A stretch of 64,000 nucleotides of DNA from Parietichytrium sp. I65-24A (lineage: Eukaryota; Sar; Bigyra; Thraustochytrida; Thraustochytriidae): assembly GCA_012862575.1 (NCBI GenBank), contig BLSF01000003.1:372001-436000 (forward strand), read 5' to 3'. The position numbers and the translations under genes were made by a program. Shown piece after piece: positions 21,461 through 60,004 of this stretch (positions are counted from its first letter, which is position 1; every line of letters starts with the position of its first letter). The notes under the pieces were generated by a model. It did no database searches. It was not told the DNA's origin and saw nothing but the letters and a program-made list of their open reading frames with translations.

Positions 21461-22759
21461 TCAGACGTACTCGCTCTCCGACGCTGTTGAGCCCGCTTCG
21501 GCTTCCAATTTATCGTGATAAGACACCACCGACTCTTGAAAGCCCTTGGCTAGCTTCAACTGCGGTGAGTGGAACGATACCGAAGCGGGCTCTGCATCTG
21601 CTGAAGGATTCCAAGAAAATGAGTTGTCGCCCGAGTCGTTGTCCTTTTTGGAGGAAGAAAGCGCACCATCTTTTGTGTCCGGCGTTTTGGGTTGCGAGCC
21701 TGTGCCAGAAGTCGTACTTGACCCACTCGCAATCGTGGTGAAGGCCAATCTTTTTCCCATGAGAGGATAGGCCATCCAGCTCACAGGAAAGAAATAGGCA
21801 TGCTTGTTCATGAGGAACGGCCACAAAGCAAACCCATAGAAAATCACGCCTTGGACTACCGCCTGCGAGAGACTTGTATTTTGGGCGTCGGCGATTGCTT
21901 TCCTCATTTGATGTATGCGTTCCGAGTGATTGATGCTCAAGCTTTTATTCAAAACCCGTAAAACCTTTCTCTTCACGAAGAATGCATGGCATCCCATTAG
22001 GGTCACCTGAATTGCTGTGCCGAGAACGACTACGTAGAAGACAGCTGTCGCGGTACTCCCGGTCCCGTCCGTGGCAATTAACGTTATGAACGGTACCCAT
22101 CCCAGGCAGGCTCCGGCGGAGCATAGGAGCATCGAGCCAATGTCGTTCACTTTGACGAGGTGCAGCGTCGCACGTTTGCCCCTTAGAATTGCAGAGAGGA
22201 GAGCCGGTTGGAAGAAGTAGAAGGCGAGGTAGAAACCCGTCTTCCCGATTGCGAAGAAAAAGGTGATCCCGAAGTCTAGCCCCACGCGCTGGTTTGGATC
22301 AATTTGCATGAGGATGCCACTCCCAATCAGGGCGGGGACACAGAATATCAGGTACATCATGCATGCCACCATTCCACGATTGTCCAGCACTGAAACCTTT
22401 TGCCCGCGCTGTCGTTTCAATTTGCTGGCCTCTTGCCATTGTCTCCACCTCAATAGTATGCGCGGCAAGCTCAAAGGCACGTAGATGAGAGTTATCAAGG
22501 TGTTTAGTCCCCAGAGAACTCGGATGGCGGCTTCGCTCATTTGGCAATCCTGTCCCTCAAAGTTGACAAGATCCGAGCGTCCTGTGAAACCTGGGTCGCA
22601 TTGGCAAGAACCGTCAATGCATTCTCCATTTTCCGAGCATACTCCGTTCGTATTCCTCACTTCGCCAAGCGGAGTATCCAGCGTGTCGCACGTGTCCTGC
22701 GCAGCCACAACTGCGAGCAGGGCCGCCAGCGTGGCCGCGGTCTTCCAAGCCTTCCACAT
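21461..22759 (-). CDS. EGF-like multi-pass membrane protein, tandem paralogue A
   Basis: 432 aa. A signal peptide (TAATLAALLAVVAAQ) precedes a short lumenal or extracellular part with six cysteines in an EGF-like pattern (CSENGECIDGSCQCDPGFTG). About seven hydrophobic segments follow, the first around IRVLWGLNTLITLIYVPLSL. A cytosolic loop with HSERIHQMRKAI lies between later segments, and a Ser/Thr-rich tail ends in SESEYV. I do not recognise the family. Its closest relative in the window is the next gene, with the same order of features and blocks such as FEGQDCQMS, ATLHLVKVNDIGS and MNKHAYF shared. An EGF module on a seven-helix body recalls adhesion receptors, but no GPCR motif is seen. 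It converges on MKS1. Confidence 0.8.
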   Translation of the reverse strand: MWKAWKTAATLAALLAVVAAQDTCDTLDTPLGEVRNTNGVCSENGECIDGSCQCDPGFTGRSDLVNFEGQDCQMSEAAIRVLWGLNTLITLIYVPLSLPRILLRWRQWQEASKLKRQRGQKVSVLDNRGMVACMMYLIFCVPALIGSGILMQIDPNQRVGLDFGITFFFAIGKTGFYLAFYFFQPALLSAILRGKRATLHLVKVNDIGSMLLCSAGACLGWVPFITLIATDGTGSTATAVFYVVVLGTAIQVTLMGCHAFFVKRKVLRVLNKSLSINHSERIHQMRKAIADAQNTSLSQAVVQGVIFYGFALWPFLMNKHAYFFPVSWMAYPLMGKRLAFTTIASGSSTTSGTGSQPKTPDTKDGALSSSKKDNDSGDNSFSWNPSADAEPASVSFHSPQLKLAKGFQESVVSYHDKLEAEAGSTASESEYV

Positions 22760-23886: not shown

Positions 23887-25164
23887 CTAAACATACTCGT
23901 TTTCGGAGCATTGCGATCGCGCCTCCTCATCAAGTTTTTCATGATAGGAGAAGACCGACTCTTGGAAACTCTTCGCTAATTTCGTTTCCGGAGAGTGAAA
24001 AGAGGTGGAGATTGTTTGCATGCTTCCAGGATCTTTGGAGAAGGAGACCTCCTCTTTCTCTTTGCTGTTGAAAGAAGACCCCTTCGTGTGTGTGCCCGAC
24101 TTGGAAGTCGCACCACTTCCTGTTGAGACGGTAGTAAAAGCTAGTTTCTTGCCGATAAGCGGGTATGCAAGCCAGCTAATTGGGAGAAAGTATGCGTGTT
24201 TATTCATAAAGAACGGCCACAGAGCAAAGAGAAAGAATACCAGACTCTGAATCGTCGCTTGAATCAGGTTTTCATTCTGGATGGCCACCAGTGCTTTCTT
24301 TATTTTCTGCGTTCGCTCAGAATGCGTGAGGCTCAAGCTCTGGTTCAGAACACGTACGACCTTGTGCTTCACATACACGGCTTGCAGTCCGAGACAGAGC
24401 ACTTGAATTGCGGTACCGAGAACAACAAGGTAAAATACCGCGGTGGCGACGACCCCGGTGCCATCTGATGCAAATAGGGTAATGAATGGCGTCCATGACA
24501 AGGCACCGCCGAGAAAGCAAAGGATGAAGGACCCGATGTCATTGACTTTGACGAGATGCAGCGTCGATCGCTTTCCTTTAAGAATTGAAGAGAGCAGGGC
24601 AGGTTGGAAAAGCCAGACTGACAGGTAAAACCCTGTCTTCCCGATTGCGAAGAAAAAGGTGATTGCGAAGTCCAGCCCCAAGCGCTGGGTTGGTTGTACT
24701 TGCATCAGTATCCCGTTTCCGATCAGCGCGGGTACACACAGAGAAACGAAGGAAATGCACGCTAGCAAACCCCGGTTATTTTTGAACGAATATGACAGGC
24801 CTTGCTCGCTCTTGAGTAATTTTGTCTCCTGATGTTGCCTCCACCGAAGAAGAACTCGCGGCATACTCCAAGGTACATAGATAAGAGTAACAAGCGAGTT
24901 AATCCCCCATAAGATGCGAATAGCAAGCGTGCTCATCTGGCAGTCCTGGCCCTCAAAATTAATCAGATCCGAGCGTCCAGTCCAGCCCGCTTCGCACAGG
25001 CATGTCCCATTTAAGCACTCCCCGCGCCCCGAACATGGCCCGTTGATGTTCCTTACTTCCCCGAACAGCTGTGGTGCGATCTCCAGAGTCTCGCAGGTAT
25101 CCTGTGCGCTAGCCGCCGCAAACGCTGCTCCCAGCAGCGCTGCAACCTTCCACGCGGTCCTCAT
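23887..25164 (-). CDS. EGF-like multi-pass membrane protein, tandem paralogue B
   Basis: 425 aa from the ATG coding MRTAWKVAALL; the upstream in-frame extension reads into leader sequence without signal-peptide character. Features mirror paralogue A: signal peptide ending ASAQDTC, EGF-like module CSGRGECLNGTCLCEAGWTG, FEGQDCQMS, about seven membrane helices, and a Ser/Lys-rich tail ending SENEYV. The insert EIAPQLFGEVRN is slightly longer than in A. The pair arose by tandem duplication in the same orientation. Divergence is greatest in the cytosolic tails, while helices and the MNKHAYF..ISWLAYPL block are held, which suggests both genes are functional. The function is unknown. Confidence 0.8.
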   Translation of the reverse strand: MRTAWKVAALLGAAFAAASAQDTCETLEIAPQLFGEVRNINGPCSGRGECLNGTCLCEAGWTGRSDLINFEGQDCQMSTLAIRILWGINSLVTLIYVPWSMPRVLLRWRQHQETKLLKSEQGLSYSFKNNRGLLACISFVSLCVPALIGNGILMQVQPTQRLGLDFAITFFFAIGKTGFYLSVWLFQPALLSSILKGKRSTLHLVKVNDIGSFILCFLGGALSWTPFITLFASDGTGVVATAVFYLVVLGTAIQVLCLGLQAVYVKHKVVRVLNQSLSLTHSERTQKIKKALVAIQNENLIQATIQSLVFFLFALWPFFMNKHAYFLPISWLAYPLIGKKLAFTTVSTGSGATSKSGTHTKGSSFNSKEKEEVSFSKDPGSMQTISTSFHSPETKLAKSFQESVFSYHEKLDEEARSQCSENEYV

Positions 25165-25291
25165 CTTTGCCGCTTCGCGCTCCCAACCAGGCCAGATCGA
25201 GCCCTGATGTTCTCTGCCGTGCTCTTCAACACACCACAAGGGAACTGCAGTCTTTCCTGACGTTCTTGCTCCGGTCCACGATTGGCAGTCT

Positions 25292-25705: not shown

Positions 25706-26102
25706 ACGGCGGGATAATTTACAGAACAATTAAAACGCTCTTGAGCTTGTTAAGCTGCGAAACTCTGCTTCCTGAGAGGCTCTCTCGCACTGTTACTGGG
25801 CACAATCTCTACCTTTTTTGGAGTTGAAGTGCTTTCAACCTCTTCATACACATTCCCTACACACTCGCCCTCTTCCAATCCAATGATTTTAAAAAAGTTA
25901 CCACTCGCCCTCTCTCTCTCTCACTCTCTCTCTGCCAAAAGGGTGGTGGCCCCACGCTACGCAGTCATTATTTCCTTGTAGTACGGATACTCTATCGGAG
26001 GTGCACAACCTTCGGGATCCTAGGCTACAGCTGCACTCTCGGACCAACCCTGATGCTCAAACAAACTGCCAAACGAACGATTTAGAGTAGTGCCACGAAT
26101 AA

Positions 26103-26148
26103 GCACCCCACCTTCCGATAGGGTTTGTTTACGCACTCACTTCGTGGC
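26103..26148 (-). repeat. dispersed repeat shared with the piggyBac-type element 3' flank
   Basis: The reverse complement of this 46-bp block matches 58189-58232, 176 bp downstream of the transposase stop. About 43 positions agree, including a perfect run around GTAAACAAACCCTATCGGAA. In this copy the block is bracketed by an 8-bp inverted repeat (GCCACGAA at 26092-26099, TTCGTGGC at 26141-26148). The likely explanation is a remnant of the same transposon family. Confidence 0.6.
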
Positions 26149-26520
26149 TTCACTTTCTTCACTTACGAATAAGATGTGGGAGTAGTCGTGTAACTTTGGA
26201 GCTGGAAAGGAAAGAAGAAAAGAAGGAGCGTAACAGTCTTCTGCGAGACGCCTTCTTTCTGACTGTTGAGGAGGGAAGACGTGTGAGGGAGAAAGAAAGA
26301 CTCACTCACCCAGAGTCAATTGACTGTATGCCCTTTTCTCCAAGGCATCCTGCTTAGATAAAAAACAATTTCACATCTTGAGTTGATCAAACTTCACACT
26401 CTCAACACTCCCCGAAGAATTGCTCTTCAGCACCTTACCAGTTCTACAGCGATATAGTAGCGCACACCTTCGCTGGCGAAAGAACGCCGTTCTTGTAACT
26501 ATTGATTGCGGGGTAGGGTC

Positions 26521-53172: not shown

Positions 53173-54360
53173 TCCCTTTTGCAGTACTCGTCTCGCACAC
53201 CCACTTCACGAAAAGACAATTCTCGCCAACTGCCCCAATCGCCTGCCCAGAATAACAGATCCTTCGGACAACCCGGCCTCGAGCCTTTCAGTTCACAAAC
53301 TAACCACACTTTCAAGGCGAGCTTCAAACTTTCTTCTTCGCCTCGCTCGCAAATCTACTGAGCTGAGAGATGGAAGATGAGAGATGAGAGATTCAAGTCT
53401 GCAACTATCACGCAAGCGTCTTTGCTCCTGGCCAGTCACCCACCATGCAAATCTCAAATCTCAAATCTCCCTTACAGCTTTCACATGCCACTTTACCCAG
53501 CTTTTGGTTAGGTTAGGTTAGCCGAGGACACCACTCTGTGTGTACGCGCTAAACTATTGTGTCTGCTACAGACGACTTTTTCTCTCTCCAACAATGTAAC
53601 AACTAACATAACTTATTCATAGCAGTCGATACAGCACCTGATAGGAGTAGTGTGCGGTCTAGGACGTTTCTAGGGAGGGGGGATGTGCGGAACGCAAAGT
53701 GATGACGATGAAGGAGGGTTCCTGGTGCAACTGGTGTATCCAGGTAATCCGGGTGCTGGTGGTTCGGTTCTCGAGTGGAGAACCGGACTGGATTGCGCAA
53801 TCGTCGAGGCGTAAGCGAGTAGAAAACTGTTCTGATGAATTAGTGTGATTAGTGTCTGGGTCCGCTTTGCATGAGCTTCTGCTCTTGTGCCGGTACCATT
53901 ATGGTACTGAGTACAGTCCATAATAGTACTGTGGTGTGTGTCGCCGAACTTCGATAGTTTTTACAGTTTTTACTGCTTTTCGTTCAAGTAAGGCTTTTCC
54001 ATCCTGGTGGGTCGAAAACGTAGTTACACTACGGTTTACGTTTCGGATGAAGTTTAATTATACCGGGGCGACATGTTAAGCAGTAGTCTGAATACGGGAA
54101 GAATGAAGTCCCAATTTAGAAACTAAATGAAGCGTCTGGCACTCCGTCTCGGGCAAACCCTCCCCCCGGGGAAAATGAGCCCTTGTCTGTTCCTTCGTTT
54201 TTTCAAAATCAAATTTTGAACTTGGCGAAGGACGCGTGGAGTCACGTCTCACCAAGTGTCGGGAGCCAAAATTTTAACGAATACAATTTCTGCGGTAGGT
54301 GCGTTTGAGTCACGCGCGGAGGTTGCTCGAAGTGGGGAGGGTGTTGGTCCCAATTTTACA
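53173..54360. other. spacer upstream of the transposon
   Basis: 1.2 kb. It contains GGTACT/AGTACT motifs at 53903-53930 and an inverted repeat at about 54013-54045 (CGAAAACGTA and TACGTTTCG around GTAGTTACACTAC). A TTAA lies at about 54053. The left end of the transposon must lie in here, but I could not fix it. No host gene is seen. Confidence 0.5.
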
Positions 54361-55890
54361 ATGCGATTTCCTCACCCTCGACCCGCAGACTGCGGAAACC
54401 TCGAGGACAGCTCATCATCTGACGAGTGTGCGGACGATTCGAGCGAATTCGACGTACACGAATACCAGGAAGACTTTGACCCTAAGATTCCGGTTGACCT
54501 CGGGCTGGGAGGCGGCTGGAAATTCAATTCGTTCAGCGAGGAGGGGGCAGAGTATCACTCTGGACTGCCGTCGACGGCGTATAGTCTTGACGCGATAAAG
54601 CTGGAGTACAACGCTTCGGATGAAAGCCTTTTGAACAAGTGGAGATCGGAGATGAAACACATCCTGTCTAATTTTCGCCAAGCAAATTATGACAGCGACT
54701 CAGAGTCTTCTGGTGGATCAAATGACATCGCGAAATTGCCGCTAACAGAGCTGGACTGCTTTGTAGCATGCATGCCTCACGAATACTTTTCGCAATTTGC
54801 CACGTGGATCAACAAAGATCTGGCAAACTCAAACAATCCGAGCATGTCTTTTTTGGACGTGGCAGCATATTTTCGAATTGAGCTAGCTCTTCGATATTAC
54901 AATTGCACTGAGTCGGACATGGAAACATTAGCGTGTGACTATAGAGTTGACATCCGCGAGCGACAGCGACATTCTGCTGTGCGAAAAGCTCTACAGCGAG
55001 CGGACACGCCTTTTCAAAAGCAGCCAGCTGTAGAGGGCCAGCACATCGCTCCATTTTCATTTGATCCAGTTCTGAAGAAAGTGGAGCATATCTTCAATAC
55101 CTTGTGGTCCGAGAAATTTTGTCTTCCAGGGACCACCTGGATCGATATTGACGACGAAAAGCTCCCATATAGCTCGAAGACCTGGGAGCAGTACGGAGTA
55201 CGGACGATCAGGACCAAAACGCGCAAGACAAAACCCGTGATGCACACAGTTGCTTCGGTAAGCACTGGTTTGCTGATACAGAGTCATCTTGAACGGCTTG
55301 ATTCATCAGCTACGAAGATCGTGTCAGAAATTTTGGAAATGCTCCTCCATAACAAGACCAGCAGCACCGCCTCGTCTCTGGTAGCTTTCATCGACAGAGA
55401 GTACCTAGCTCTTGCTGCTGCTCAGTCTCCCGATCGGAGGACAAACATCATGCAACTTTTACGTGAGAAAGGAGTCAGGTTCCTCGCCACTGCTAGTAAC
55501 ACTAGCCCATTTCCTTTTGTCGAGCATGCATCCAAAGAAGAGACTCGATCTAACATTGTGGTAAAGAAGTATGTTTCTGTCACTAAACGAGGAGCAAGGT
55601 CGGTTTTTTCGGCTAGTACTCCTGCGATCTCTGCTGTGATGATGCGACACGGCCGTGGCACATCCCGCGTTGCAAGTTTGATCACAAATGAACGCAGTTT
55701 TGGACTCAACACTTGGGTTTACGAGACTTCGTCTGGTCGCACGCGAGGTGCAAGTTCTCTTGGAGGTGTTTCACGTCTGCCACACTCGATCGAGCCGGAA
55801 TGTCTCACGCACACGAGCTTCAAAACACAGATCTTAAGACAATTTGCTCGCGAGCAATTCAGCAGATGGAGTCTGCGCTGTATCAGATGA
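54361..55890 (+). CDS. piggyBac-type transposase, N-terminal part
   Basis: About 509 codons from the first ATG (MRFPHPRPADCG); the frame extends upstream without ATG. Residues 1-60 are acidic and Ser-rich, as in piggyBac N-termini. The region around FLDVAAYFRIELALRYYNC resembles the helical domain before the catalytic core. The strand WIDIDDEKLP holds the first Asp, KTRKTKPVMHTVASVSTGL follows as the usual 'Kp..G' strand, and VAFIDREYLALAA holds the second Asp; oomycete piggyBac-like proteins have DRGY here. RFLATASNTSPFPF matches the next strand. The frame ends with a different, non-homologous tail after about 55750, overlapping the next frame. Confidence 0.7.
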   Translation: MRFPHPRPADCGNLEDSSSSDECADDSSEFDVHEYQEDFDPKIPVDLGLGGGWKFNSFSEEGAEYHSGLPSTAYSLDAIKLEYNASDESLLNKWRSEMKHILSNFRQANYDSDSESSGGSNDIAKLPLTELDCFVACMPHEYFSQFATWINKDLANSNNPSMSFLDVAAYFRIELALRYYNCTESDMETLACDYRVDIRERQRHSAVRKALQRADTPFQKQPAVEGQHIAPFSFDPVLKKVEHIFNTLWSEKFCLPGTTWIDIDDEKLPYSSKTWEQYGVRTIRTKTRKTKPVMHTVASVSTGLLIQSHLERLDSSATKIVSEILEMLLHNKTSSTASSLVAFIDREYLALAAAQSPDRRTNIMQLLREKGVRFLATASNTSPFPFVEHASKEETRSNIVVKKYVSVTKRGARSVFSASTPAISAVMMRHGRGTSRVASLITNERSFGLNTWVYETSSGRTRGASSLGGVSRLPHSIEPECLTHTSFKTQILRQFAREQFSRWSLRCIR

Positions 55891-58013
55891 CTCTATCTCA
55901 GGGTACACCGGATTGGTTTCTCGCTCGGATGTTTCGGAGCACGTCGACCACAACTCATGTTCTTATGCATTGCACGGAGGCAGCGTACTTGAACACTCAG
56001 GACATGCACAACTTGCATGAAGAGGTGAAGGAAATTGCTCAGCTGCGGCCGCGGCAAGCAATTGCGTTTGCCAAAGCGAGTGTCTGGAAAGACAACGACA
56101 TGGACAATGAAGTGCCGGCCTTGAACCCTGGGCTAGAGCTCAACTTTCACCGCAGTGCGTCGCATGAAACTCGGGGGGATCGCACAACGCCAAAATTTTG
56201 GGCAAACGGCCGATCTCAGGCTGATTTGATGAGGATTATCACGGAAGAAGCGCATTATGGCATACCACAGCCAGCTACCTTAAAGTCGATGTCAGAGCTG
56301 CTTGCCCGAATCGAGCAAGCGTCGCCGGGAATATCGCGGACATGGGAGATTCGTAAAGGAGGTTCAGCTCCAAGCGGGGCTCATTCGTCGCCCACCGATA
56401 CTTTGGATCTGTCAAAGAACCAAGGCTCGCCTTCTACCAACTACACAAACATGGCCCCAGCTGTTGAAGTGGAATCGTATCCGCGTTCAGGCTCTGATGT
56501 GAGCTCTGCTCTCTTGACAGATGACCCTCACGTAACGTTTCTTCAGGTGATGCTAAAGCGCTGGTTCAGGTCGCCTTTACACAAAGCAAGTGATGCAGTC
56601 AGAGCGTTTCGCGTGGGCGTTCTTGATGAGAACATGAAAATGAAAGAGTTGGGGAGCTTCATCGAACGCGTTACAGATGGCGATCTCAAGGTGTGTGTGC
56701 TGAAGGAGTATGGGTTGCTGGCTCGGAAGTCGATTCCGTTTGCAGCGGACTCGCCGGATGGTGTATGCGCGCTGTCTATCAGGCAATCAGGCAACGAGAA
56801 ATTTTTCGGACTTGCAGCGTTAGAGTACAAAATGTGCACCGATGTAAGCGCGATCCAAACTCTTGAGGAACAGGTGGCCATTCACGGCGAATGGATTAGA
56901 TGCAAGGCGGGTACAGAAGAGTTGCGCAAAGCGATTCCCAAGGCTTCGTACAGGACGCAAATTGTGCATCACGCTGCAGTCCTCGGCCTCAACTACACCC
57001 TCTTGATTTACGCAAGCCCTACTTCCATCATGCAAGGTATTCTTGTAGAAGTAACAGAGAAGCAACGCGAGACTTGGCTCCGGTTCCTAAAGCAGCTTGA
57101 GACCGCCTACATGGGTTTCGCATACAGCGAGAGGATCTGCAGCCCACCGCGAGTTGGCAGGGACCGAAGTGCAGTCTACGGATACGCCCGTGAACATCAC
57201 ACTGTTGAACAGTATCTTGGGCTTTGGCGAGCCCATTTTGAGGATGTGAAGAGGCACGGCACCCCCCCTCCTGCGACCCACATTCTTGCAAAAATTGCAA
57301 GCTCTTGGAACAAGCACAAGGGGGACGTTGACGCGAAAGGGGTGGAGAATAGTCGGAAGGTCATCGGGAGTAAGGTGCAACCGAGTACATTGATATGGCA
57401 GACTCATTTTGACTACGCTTTGTGGAACGCCTTCAGGTTGTGGCAAAATGCTGCTGTTTACAATTTCGCAAAGGAGACCGATAGCTTCGACGAGCTAGTG
57501 GAGAAAAGGGAAGAGGCAAGAACTTATATGGGCTTTTTGTCTGGATTGCGCAACGCCTTGGATCCCAACACAATGGCGTTTGCATACCCTGGCCTTGCGG
57601 AAAAGATTGACGGGTACGCCGTTTGTCCTCCCATCCCGAAATCGCCCGCTCTGCAGGAGCCCAACACAGAACGATCCGATGGCCCGAGCCGTAAGCGTCG
57701 CAAAATTGCACGCTCAATGTTGGAAAGTGAAACGTCCGAGCTGAACGTAGTCAGATTGTCAACTGCGGAACGGCATCGACCTGTACGCCAAAAGTTTAAG
57801 CGCACACAATGCGTTTTGTGCTGCCGCAGGTGTGAAGAGAACCGCGAGCACAGAGTACATGCTACTGGGACGCTCAGGCGAGAACCTCGAGAAACCAGAC
57901 AAGTTTGCTCCGTCTGTGACGTGCCTGTTTGCCAATCTTGTTGGGAGAAATGGCACAGCGTAGTAAAGCGCGAGGATCTACTTTCCCGCTGCGAACTTGC
58001 AAAGCTTGATTAG
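55692..58013 (+). CDS. piggyBac-type transposase, C-terminal part with YqaJ-like PD-(D/E)XK domain and cysteine cluster
   Basis: This frame is open from 55692 without a leading ATG, so it is a continuation rather than a separate gene. The YqaJ-like domain starts at TPDWFLARMFRSTSTTTH (about 55905-55960; YqaJ has W...R...T.S). It continues with RVGVLDENMKMKEL (the GxxxE helix), FAADSPDGV (56751-56762; the SPDG motif), ALEYKM (56823-56831; ExK) and SYRTQIVHHAAVLGL (the Q motif). All three expected acidic/lysine positions are present. The third transposase Asp follows in WNKHKGDVDAKG with YALWNAFRLW. The end has paired cysteines (CVLCCRRC, CSVCDVPVC, CWEKWH) as in the piggyBac cysteine-rich domain. 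An 83-nt GT-AG segment at 55748-55830 would put the two frames in register, but its donor is GTGCAA, unlike the host introns. Confidence 0.7.
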   Translation, partial: TQFWTQHLGLRDFVWSHARCKFSWRCFTSATLDRAGMSHAHELQNTDLKTICSRAIQQMESALYQMTLSQGTPDWFLARMFRSTSTTTHVLMHCTEAAYLNTQDMHNLHEEVKEIAQLRPRQAIAFAKASVWKDNDMDNEVPALNPGLELNFHRSASHETRGDRTTPKFWANGRSQADLMRIITEEAHYGIPQPATLKSMSELLARIEQASPGISRTWEIRKGGSAPSGAHSSPTDTLDLSKNQGSPSTNYTNMAPAVEVESYPRSGSDVSSALLTDDPHVTFLQVMLKRWFRSPLHKASDAVRAFRVGVLDENMKMKELGSFIERVTDGDLKVCVLKEYGLLARKSIPFAADSPDGVCALSIRQSGNEKFFGLAALEYKMCTDVSAIQTLEEQVAIHGEWIRCKAGTEELRKAIPKASYRTQIVHHAAVLGLNYTLLIYASPTSIMQGILVEVTEKQRETWLRFLKQLETAYMGFAYSERICSPPRVGRDRSAVYGYAREHHTVEQYLGLWRAHFEDVKRHGTPPPATHILAKIASSWNKHKGDVDAKGVENSRKVIGSKVQPSTLIWQTHFDYALWNAFRLWQNAAVYNFAKETDSFDELVEKREEARTYMGFLSGLRNALDPNTMAFAYPGLAEKIDGYAVCPPIPKSPALQEPNTERSDGPSRKRRKIARSMLESETSELNVVRLSTAERHRPVRQKFKRTQCVLCCRRCEENREHRVHATGTLRREPRETRQVCSVCDVPVCQSCWEKWHSVVKREDLLSRCELAKLD

Positions 58014-58188
58014 TTTTATTCGCCCGGTTCTCTTCGAGTTAGATTTTGCCTTTTTCGACAGTAAAACAATGGAATCGCTTTCTGAGAAACTCCGGCGACA
58101 CGAACATTTTTACCTGAATGGGATTGAATGGAATGACCGTTTAAACAATGGTTCCGCAATTGAGAAATATTATTGAATAAGTGGTGGA

Positions 58189-58232
58189 GCCACGAAGTGC
58201 AGAGTAAACAAACCCTATCGGAAGGTGGGGTG
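58189..58232 (+). repeat. 3' flank repeat shared with 26.1 kb
   Basis: Matches the reverse complement of 26103-26148 at about 43 of 46 positions. It lies 176 bp past the transposase stop and may mark the element's 3' noncoding end. Confidence 0.6.
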
Positions 58233-60004
58233 ATTGAAACTGAAAGTCTGAATTGGATGATGCATAACTTTGTCAAACACGCGTTTCATCAAAAATTAGT
58301 TTGCACAACACGCTCATTGACAGTGAGGACAAGAACATTGCAGGCACTTTAGTTTGCGCTATACGGATTACTATTGAGAACTCATTGTGTATTTACCTGT
58401 TAAACTATACTATACGATAGTACAGGCAGAGCGCGGGAAAACGGATTTGTCTGAAAGGTCTGAGAGCCACGCACTTTTGGGCCTGGAAAGGCCCAAACTG
58501 CTGCCGAAAAGAGAGCGCGGGAACAGAAAAGATACGAATGGCCCGATATCTCTTGCTCGGTCTCTTCAATGTCGTCGATTCTCCACCTTCGCGGGCCACC
58601 ACACGCGCTTTCATTGTTCAGCATTATCAGAATTCAGCATTCCAAAAAATTAGTCAGTTTCACTAATGTGGACCTGTGCCTCTACCAGTCACTAGGCTTA
58701 TGCGTACAGTCCACAGTCCGTTTGACAGAACACTCCTACTCCACGCCTCATCGGCCAAGCTACCAATCTCCCGGCACTCCACATTCGCAGGTCCTATCTG
58801 GCCAGTAGATGCGTACTATACCTTCCTACCTAGCCCCGCACACCCCTCGAATTAGCTCTGGAACGTAGGTCCGAATAGTCCGGTTGTAGTAAGCGCATCT
58901 CCGTTTAATGGAGAAAAAAGTTTCCATGCAAAGTTTTTGAAACTTAAAAAAGTTACCAGTGTTTTAAAATGAACAGCTCGCGAGCAGGACGATACCCAGA
59001 AAGATACGGGATGCAAAGAAAAGAAGAAATAGTTAACAGAGAAAGCAATTCCGTTGTCTAGTGATTAAAACTTAATCCCTAGGACCGATCCCATTTGGGC
59101 GATTTGGATGACTCGATCGAGATTTCCAGCGGATAGAAAGAAGCACTCAGCCATACTCCGCCCAAGGAATTGCAAGGGAGCTCCAGTCTCAGCTCATCCG
59201 CAGCTGTTTCCGATCTCTGCTGTTTTCTGCTTTGGCGATGTTTGTGTTTTCTCTCCACCAAAATGAATCCGTGAAAAATTAATGCGACCTCGCCAAATTG
59301 GGCCACTGCGAATCGAGCGAAGGCTTTTCTACCACCGACATATTCCTACCCGCTCCTACTCCTCAATTAGACACTGTTCAGCTGAACCCAATGATACTCA
59401 ATGCGTGTGGCACTCCCTCCCACAACCTACGCCTAGCGAGAGCTAATGACTCTTACCACGGAGTGCCAGTGCACATGCCAGGCCGGGCTGCATGGGCGGT
59501 CGGTCAAAGGAATTTCGGCGGTAGGACGCGCCGACTGCCCCCCATCTCCACATTCACCTACGAATAAGGTTATGCATAACTGTAGATATATCCGGCACCA
59601 CCCGTGCGTGGGGGGCGGTATGCGATAAAGAGCGCTGCGCCGTGGGTTTTCGGGAGGGAGGAATGAAAGGGAGCGCATCGGGAATTGGGAGGGACAGTGG
59701 ACAGTGGACAGTGGACAGTGGCAATGGAAAAAGAGGCAACAACAGAGCAAAATTAAGAAGGAGACAGACTCTATTCAAAGAACCGCCAACACGCCGCCTT
59801 CGTCACGGTGTAAAAGGACGAGGCAAAGAAGCAAAGAAGCAAAGAAGCAAAGACGTAAAGAGGCGAAGAGGCGCAGAGACTAGGGGAGAACGACGGAGAG
59901 GAAGGGTGATCGAATCAAGTGTTGAATAGGGGACACAGAACAGAGTGGTCGCAAGAGGATTTGGGAAAGTAAGGTCGCAAGACGAAAGGGAGTGGGAGAG
60001 GAAG
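58233..60004. other. spacer between transposon and Dispatched-like gene
   Basis: 1.8 kb. AT-rich at 58880-59080. It contains an ACAGTGG heptamer repeat at about 59694-59721 and an AAAGAAGC repeat at about 59824-59850 in the purine-rich leader of the next gene. Short frames here lack recognisable motifs. Confidence 0.5.

Follow-up and report, generated by a model that had tools for sequence, protein, structure and literature searches.

The locus described here lies in a 64,000-nucleotide stretch of the thraustochytrid Parietichytrium sp. I65-24A (contig BLSF01000003.1, positions 372,001 to 436,000; hereafter the window, whose own numbering is used throughout) and comprises two overlapping open reading frames (ORFs) on the forward strand, ORF1 and ORF2 (Table 1). 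An original prediction, made from the sequence alone, had described it as a piggyBac-type transposase whose three aspartates (D1, D2 and D3) and C-terminal cysteine cluster bracket a nuclease of the YqaJ branch. With six large ORFs of the window as the standard, codon usage points to the frame of ORF1 up to ~55,700 and to that of ORF2 from ~55,760 to ~57,800, and with one frame favoured per ORF the locus is thus coding-type sequence with a single frame change. A possible intron (55748-55830, 83 nt, GT...AG) is one among dozens of GT-AG pairs of suitable length in the frame-change zone, and the change from ORF1 to ORF2 is possibly an intron or a simple lesion.

Table 1. Features of the locus, in window coordinates.
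Feature	Position	Strand	Remarks
ORF1	54361..55890	+	509 amino acids from first ATG; N-terminal half; D1 and D2 of an RNase H core like that of piggyBac are proposed here
Proposed D1	55150-55152	+	IDIDDEKLPY; partial motif by eye (piggyBac references ISIDESMIPY, LSLDEGIVPW, LTIDEQLLGF, VVIDESLVMF)
Proposed D2	55393-55395	+	AFIDREYLAL; without the references' DN[FYW][FYW]xS
Frame-change zone	55692..55890	+	Codon usage places the change near 55,725
ORF2	55713..58013	+	766 amino acids, stop-free; first in-frame ATG 55800; YqaJ-like nuclease, D3 and Cys-rich domain in one frame
YqaJ / lambda-exonuclease-like nuclease domain	55887..57128	+	QGTPDWFLARMFRSTST, GVLDE, KEYGLL..SPDGVC, LEYKM, YRTQIVHH
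YqaJ key residues	W 55914, R 55926, G 56616, E 56628, D 56757, E 56823, K 56829, Q 56958	+	
D3 region	57306..57443	+	WNKHKGDVD (D3 57330-57332) and WNAFRLW
C-terminal Cys-rich domain	57810..57956	+	CVLC...CSVCDVPVCQSCWEKWH; piggyBat-like

The YqaJ-like nuclease domain

Neither ORF1 nor ORF2 was matched significantly by any stock model of Pfam, PHROGs or NCBIfam, and a custom YqaJ profile was therefore built; the TIGR03033 model itself did not match the nuclease. The profile comprised the 58 non-redundant members of 112 collected phage YqaJ proteins (lambda Exo, six other phage YqaJ proteins, and 105 proteins from at least 120 IMG/VR pattern-scan loci) and was searched without filters, its E-values being single-sequence E-values. 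It matched a 443-residue piece carrying the nuclease at E 1.1e-5 (11.2 bits) and the whole of ORF2 at E 4e-5 (9.4 bits). The match consists of three collinear segments, QGTPDWFLARMFRSTST, KEYGLL..SPDGVC and YRTQIVHH, of which only the first is strong alone (7.8 bits in the 443-residue piece; -1.2 and -0.9 for the other two). ORF2 ranked top among the 520 stop-to-stop ORFs of at least 60 residues in the window (9.3 bits; next 4.8), and none of 2000 shuffles of ORF2 reached its 9.4 bits (best 8.1). Compared with YqaJ by hhalign, the nuclease scored 27.3, the maximum in 150 shuffles being 19.4; this alignment covers the N-terminal motif alone (30 columns) and has a probability of 9.8%.

The order of the conserved residues was examined separately. 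Seven phage YqaJ proteins share 12 invariant residues, nine of which (W, R, G, E, D, G, E, K, Q) occur in order in ORF2; W, R, D, G and Q were placed by the profile alignment and the residues of GxxxE and ExK by eye. The roles assigned to these key residues come from lambda Exo. The ordered motif, for which the gap ranges were chosen after seeing the window sequence, was found in one of the 182 window ORFs of at least 100 residues (ORF2 itself) and in 7 of 20000 ORF2 shuffles. Of 2114 control ORFs, 114 contained it, among them 92 of the 100 SPDG/EIKCP proteins; of the 1961 control ORFs lacking E[IVFL]K[CSF], one did. The motifs listed by the original prediction (W, R, GxxxE, SPDG, ExK and Q) were confirmed in that order, and the identity of the domain passed the profile, shuffle and whole-window controls; the lack of a significant YqaJ match, which the prediction had named as evidence against itself, is true of the stock models and untrue of the custom profile.

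Single comparisons were weaker. The top BLASTP pair between lambda Exo and the 443-residue piece was ACSPDGLCS / ADSPDGVCA (E 0.17), and the top PDB sequence match of the nuclease was mimivirus R354 (E 0.47), aligned at EYGLL..SPDG. The distance from D to E is 22 residues here, 21 in R354 (counted by eye) and 10 in lambda Exo; being near that of R354 and unlike that of lambda, it gives a hint of the eukaryotic-virus branch. We take R354 to be the nuclease of MIMIVIRE. The MIMIVIRE nuclease has been called Cas4-like in the available portion of PMC6538805, which does not mention R354 by name. At the level of sequence, these results support statistically that the domain belongs to the YqaJ / lambda-exonuclease kind, with a predicted nuclease activity.

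The piggyBac-type end and the proposed first half

The C-terminal part of ORF2 was compared with piggyBac references comprising L009, L007, the broken L140, and stretches of piggyBat and of the Trichoplusia ni (T. ni) piggyBac, the last two taken from alignments. L009 and L007 are true piggyBacs (Pfam PF13843 E 2e-71 and 5.2e-37, respectively); L007 was found in a Rhodobacteraceae bin and L009 and L140 in an Aquifex bin, presumably as eukaryotic contamination of the bins. A piggyBac profile running from D3 to the Cys-rich domain (CRD) matched the end of ORF2 at E 5.9e-7 (15.9 bits; best of 2000 shuffles 7.4), and with it ORF2 was the top ORF of the window (11.9 bits; next 7.4). The margin depends on the added rows, because an earlier profile without piggyBat and T. 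ni reached 12.3 bits and its best shuffle 11.2. Most of the score is carried by the Cys-rich domain, which gave 15.1 bits (E 1e-6 for that stretch of the profile) and which aligned pairwise with z 6.2 to piggyBat and 4.3 to L140 (reached by 0 of 300 shuffles each) and with z 1.4 to L009; the T. ni and L007 rows stop short of this domain. By hhalign, the Cys-rich end matched piggyBac with a probability of 74.9%, equalled by none of 150 shuffles.

Upstream of this domain, WNKHKGDVD differs by two mismatches from the piggyBac D3 motif YNxx[MK][GK]GVD, and the N of WNAFRLW follows D3 by 32 residues (33-34 in five piggyBac references). A D3 motif with up to two mismatches, a tolerance fixed after seeing the ORF2 sequence, followed by N[AS][FYW] occurred in none of the 2114 control ORFs; the D3-like part alone matched 10. 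That a Cys-rich end of piggyBac type follows the nuclease without a change of frame is supported statistically by the profile, pairwise and hhalign comparisons.

The proposed D1 and D2 in ORF1 are 81 residues apart, the corresponding spacings in four piggyBac references being 85, 72, 78 and 77. We consider them likely to be the piggyBac aspartates, given the end of piggyBac type that follows in the neighbouring frame; further support comes from the spacing and the partial D1 motif. The original prediction was right on coordinates and motifs, while homology scores did not bear out the assignment of these two aspartates to a transposase, no method separating this half from shuffles. Its picture of a transposase bracketing the nuclease was supported from D3 to the Cys-rich end, mostly through the Cys-rich domain with D3 alone being weak, and is plausible by spacing on the D1-D2 side.

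Weighing the proposed fused transposase against its rivals

On balance, we read the locus as a divergent, possibly decayed piggyBac-type transposase with a PD-(D/E)XK exonuclease of the YqaJ / lambda-exonuclease / mimivirus R354 kind between D2 and D3. The nuclease fills part of the 1.94 kb that separate these two aspartates; the insert of 1.2 kb originally described roughly fits the nuclease, which spans 1.05 kb from W to Q, and is shorter than the D2-D3 gap. In piggyBat, the insertion domain starts after the second aspartate. Its end is immediately ahead of a hairpin at 382-399 that precedes D413, and the aspartates D237, D309 and D413 leave D2 and D3 104 residues apart (PMC11707139, available portion). 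As part of our best reading, the nuclease would occupy the site of the small insertion domain of piggyBac and piggyBat. ORF1 is likely the first half of the core, and both frames likely make one protein, either via an intron or before a recent lesion. We regard the domain combination as real and unusual for the nuclease side and the Cys-rich end; an RNase H core is probable, and this copy may be dead.

Several results weigh against this reading, beginning with the stock models described above. PF13843 (DDE_Tnp_1_7) gave no match at E <= 10 to ORF1, ORF2 or pieces of them (HMMER filters on). On the D1-D2 region, piggyBac profiles did no better than on shuffles, local alignments to six piggyBac D1-D2 rows gave z from -1.1 to 0.6, and an hhalign match was equalled by 42 of 150 shuffles. 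A semi-global alignment to L009 placed D1 and D2 in register and was equalled by 69 of 500 shuffles, the corresponding counts being 13/500 for T. ni (out of register), 301/500 for piggyBat and 64/500 for L140. The D3 part alone reached 2.4 bits (E 0.0087), a score attained by at least 6 of 2000 shuffles, and a pairwise z of at most 1.1. AlphaFold single-sequence models had a mean pLDDT (predicted local distance difference test) of 32.8 for the D1-D2 region, which is uninformative, and of 41.2 for the nuclease, where residues ~381-443, including the helix with Q, form blocks at 70-92 except for 401-410 at 49. A fold search with the nuclease model returned 385 matches at E <= 10 and none at E <= 0.001, and no YqaJ-family nuclease was among the best 50 of the 385; taken alone, the structure predictions speak neither for nor against the reading. 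The reading frame changes inside the gene, ahead of the nuclease domain, and because of this the single polypeptide of the original prediction was not confirmed; the change falls between 55692 and 55890. No convincing TTAA-bounded inverted repeats were found in 30 TTAA pairs (53-54.4 kb versus 58-60 kb, so that ends farther out or eroded would escape), and the 64-kb window holds no second copy of the gene. Finally, no relatives were found in viral contigs using ORF2, ORF1, the nuclease, the D3-CRD part or a PDWF pattern, in genome contigs or plasmids using ORF2, or in phages using the nuclease (tblastn); the collections searched were of viruses, bacteria and archaea, plasmids and phages, and these negatives do not bear on eukaryotes.

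Some of the same observations would fit a piggyBac-derived gene domesticated by the host, as PiggyMac in Paramecium, which would have lost its ends and serve the cell, the nuclease helping to process ends. Domestication of piggyBac is well known (PMC8086355, available portion), and the lack of TTAA-bounded inverted repeats, the single copy in 64 kb and the long open frames with coding-type codon usage all agree with it. The frame change, however, suggests decay unless it is an intron, the element ends may be eroded or lie outside the searched stretch, and the viral, prokaryotic, plasmid and phage collections yielded no relatives to show conservation; we judge domestication unlikely. It is also improbable, in our view, that piggyBac is not involved and that a YqaJ-type nuclease ending in a zinc finger simply stands beside an unrelated upstream ORF, with D1 and D2 arising by chance. 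ORF1 indeed failed every homology test made, the frame changes between ORF1 and ORF2, the zinc finger supplies most of the piggyBac score with D3 alone weak, and the Pfam models scoring best on the zinc finger, though without significance, were those of B-boxes (E 0.016-0.66). This account has to contend with a D3-like motif followed by N[AS][FYW] near the piggyBac spacing, a combination absent from the control ORFs (with the tolerance set afterwards), with a D1-D2 spacing that fits, and with the z-scores of 6.2 and 4.3 linking the zinc finger to two piggyBac ones, a comparison made with piggyBac fingers only.

Nesting of two elements was also considered, in which an element with its own YqaJ gene was inserted into a piggyBac copy and the fusion was never one protein. 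The frame does change near the left edge of the nuclease domain, and a separate YqaJ gene is found in most of the candidate autonomous ISL2EU elements according to the available portion of PMC4482050. An unbroken 766-codon frame, best by codon usage nearly throughout, nevertheless takes in the nuclease, D3 and the Cys-rich end, and this counts against nesting since random insertion would rarely preserve the frame; we hold nesting to be very unlikely.

Further matches were assessed as follows. A 22-nt inverted pair at 54221 / 58738 is at about chance level in 7.5 kb by our own estimate. The lone match to the PDWF pattern (L001) lies in a 36-residue stop-bounded stretch antisense to a long ORF and is due to chance, the 19 tblastn rows from phages, all at E 0.8 or higher, were PhoH-like or hypothetical proteins, and a scan with an R354 fragment gave 21 stretches of which none was confirmed. 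The piggyBac motif was found at four loci in viral contigs, none of them piggyBac by eye, and at five loci in genome contigs, two of which are true piggyBacs in bacterial bins; across 398 genomes of one phylum, the sole PF13843 match was a bin already known. Matches to DNA_photolyase, B-box, ANCHR, DUF4637, CpaD and tRNA-guanine transglycosylase models (E 0.016-1.5) were put down to chance.

The surroundings are an ordinary stretch of eukaryote genome with cilia genes: neighbouring ORFs (14 ORFs) match a Na+/H+ exchanger with cNMP domain, a ciliary B9 protein, a class 3 lipase, a mitochondrial carrier and a Patched-type protein, and no Rfam model matched the window at gathering level. A 53-nt repeat is present at 58184-58235, ~170 bp after ORF2, and in opposite orientation at 26101-26153; the copies are 89% alike, share a 25-nt exact core (AAACAAACCCTATCGGAAGGTGGGG) and are both flanked, by eye, by short direct repeats (ATTGAA; CTTATTCGT), which makes them look like a tiny dispersed element with target duplications. 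On the reverse strand, two adjoining genes (21461-22759 and 23887-25239), each with an EGF-like domain match, show 60% identity over 435 aligned columns and represent a tandem duplication. Short tandem repeats of GGACAGT (x 4.3) and GCAAAGAA (x 5.9) lie at 59692-59872, upstream of the Patched-type gene.

Proposed function and comparison with known systems

If the locus is read as a transposase containing a nuclease, the RNase H core would cut the element out and the nuclease, held near the cut ends, would resect the 5' strand at the break left in the donor. Donor-site repair might then copy a homologous template and bring the element back at that site, so that copies would increase overall; this step from resection to copy gain is the likeliest of several guesses and is in itself rather unlikely. 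A broader proposal, possible though doubtful, is that of a piggyBac lineage, perhaps among stramenopiles, with an exonuclease of virus or phage origin as its insertion domain, forming a two-site enzyme in which excision would be coupled to resecting the donor break and thereby to copy gain. To our knowledge, no insertion domain of RAG or of a transposase with the RNase H fold is a nuclease. Such domains shape DNA as it is cut and made into hairpins; in RAG and Hermes they help to deform it for these steps, and piggyBac makes a hairpin on the excised element (PMC6900584, available portion). A nuclease at the insertion-domain site could work on DNA ends while the transposase holds them. If true, a nuclease at this site would be a new way of coupling cutting with repair, and the role of the YqaJ genes travelling with ISL2EU, called unknown in the available portion of PMC4482050, would become testable.

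Among known systems, the piggyBac superfamily (T. ni piggyBac, PDB 6x67/6x68; piggyBat, 9c0f) shares with this locus the Cys-rich C-terminal domain, the D3-like motif, N[AS][FYW] after D3 at about the same spacing, and the D1-D2 spacing. It differs in that here a nuclease lies in a 1.94-kb D2-D3 gap, compared with 104 residues in piggyBat, the DE, GR and DN[FYW][FYW] motifs are degraded, and no TTAA ends were found. The domesticated PiggyMac and PGBD transposases have a variant of the Cys-rich domain to which the one described here is, by eye, nearer than to the T. ni type, whereas no nuclease insert is mentioned in the available portion of PMC8086355. Teratorn, the piggyBac-herpesvirus fusions of fish, likewise joins a piggyBac element to virus genes, but these are separate genes of a virus genome, and the available portion of PMC5822658 describes no fusion within the transposase.

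On the nuclease side, the YqaJ / lambda exonuclease family (phage Exo; TIGR03033) has the same ordered W, R, GxxxE, SPDG, ExK and Q, whereas the domain described here is expanded by long inserts that separate the N-terminal motif from GxxxE and SPDG from ExK, and sits in a larger frame with transposase-like parts. Mimivirus R354 (PDB 5yet, 5yeu) resembles it in the EYGLL..SPDG segment and the D-to-E distance, but is a stand-alone viral protein, and the match alone is insignificant (E 0.47). Among the matches listed from the open-access literature, among which no Repbase reports were seen, no description of a YqaJ domain inside a piggyBac transposase was found, and the combination may have been described before. 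The closest published case of YqaJ with a eukaryotic transposase that we found is ISL2EU of the PHIS superfamily, a DDE transposon that also carries a YqaJ domain; in contrast to the locus described here, where no Pfam domain corresponding to the ISL2EU hallmarks HTH and THAP was found in ORF1 or ORF2, its YqaJ domain is a second ORF outside the transposase, and that transposase is related to PIF/Harbinger (PMC4482050, available portion).

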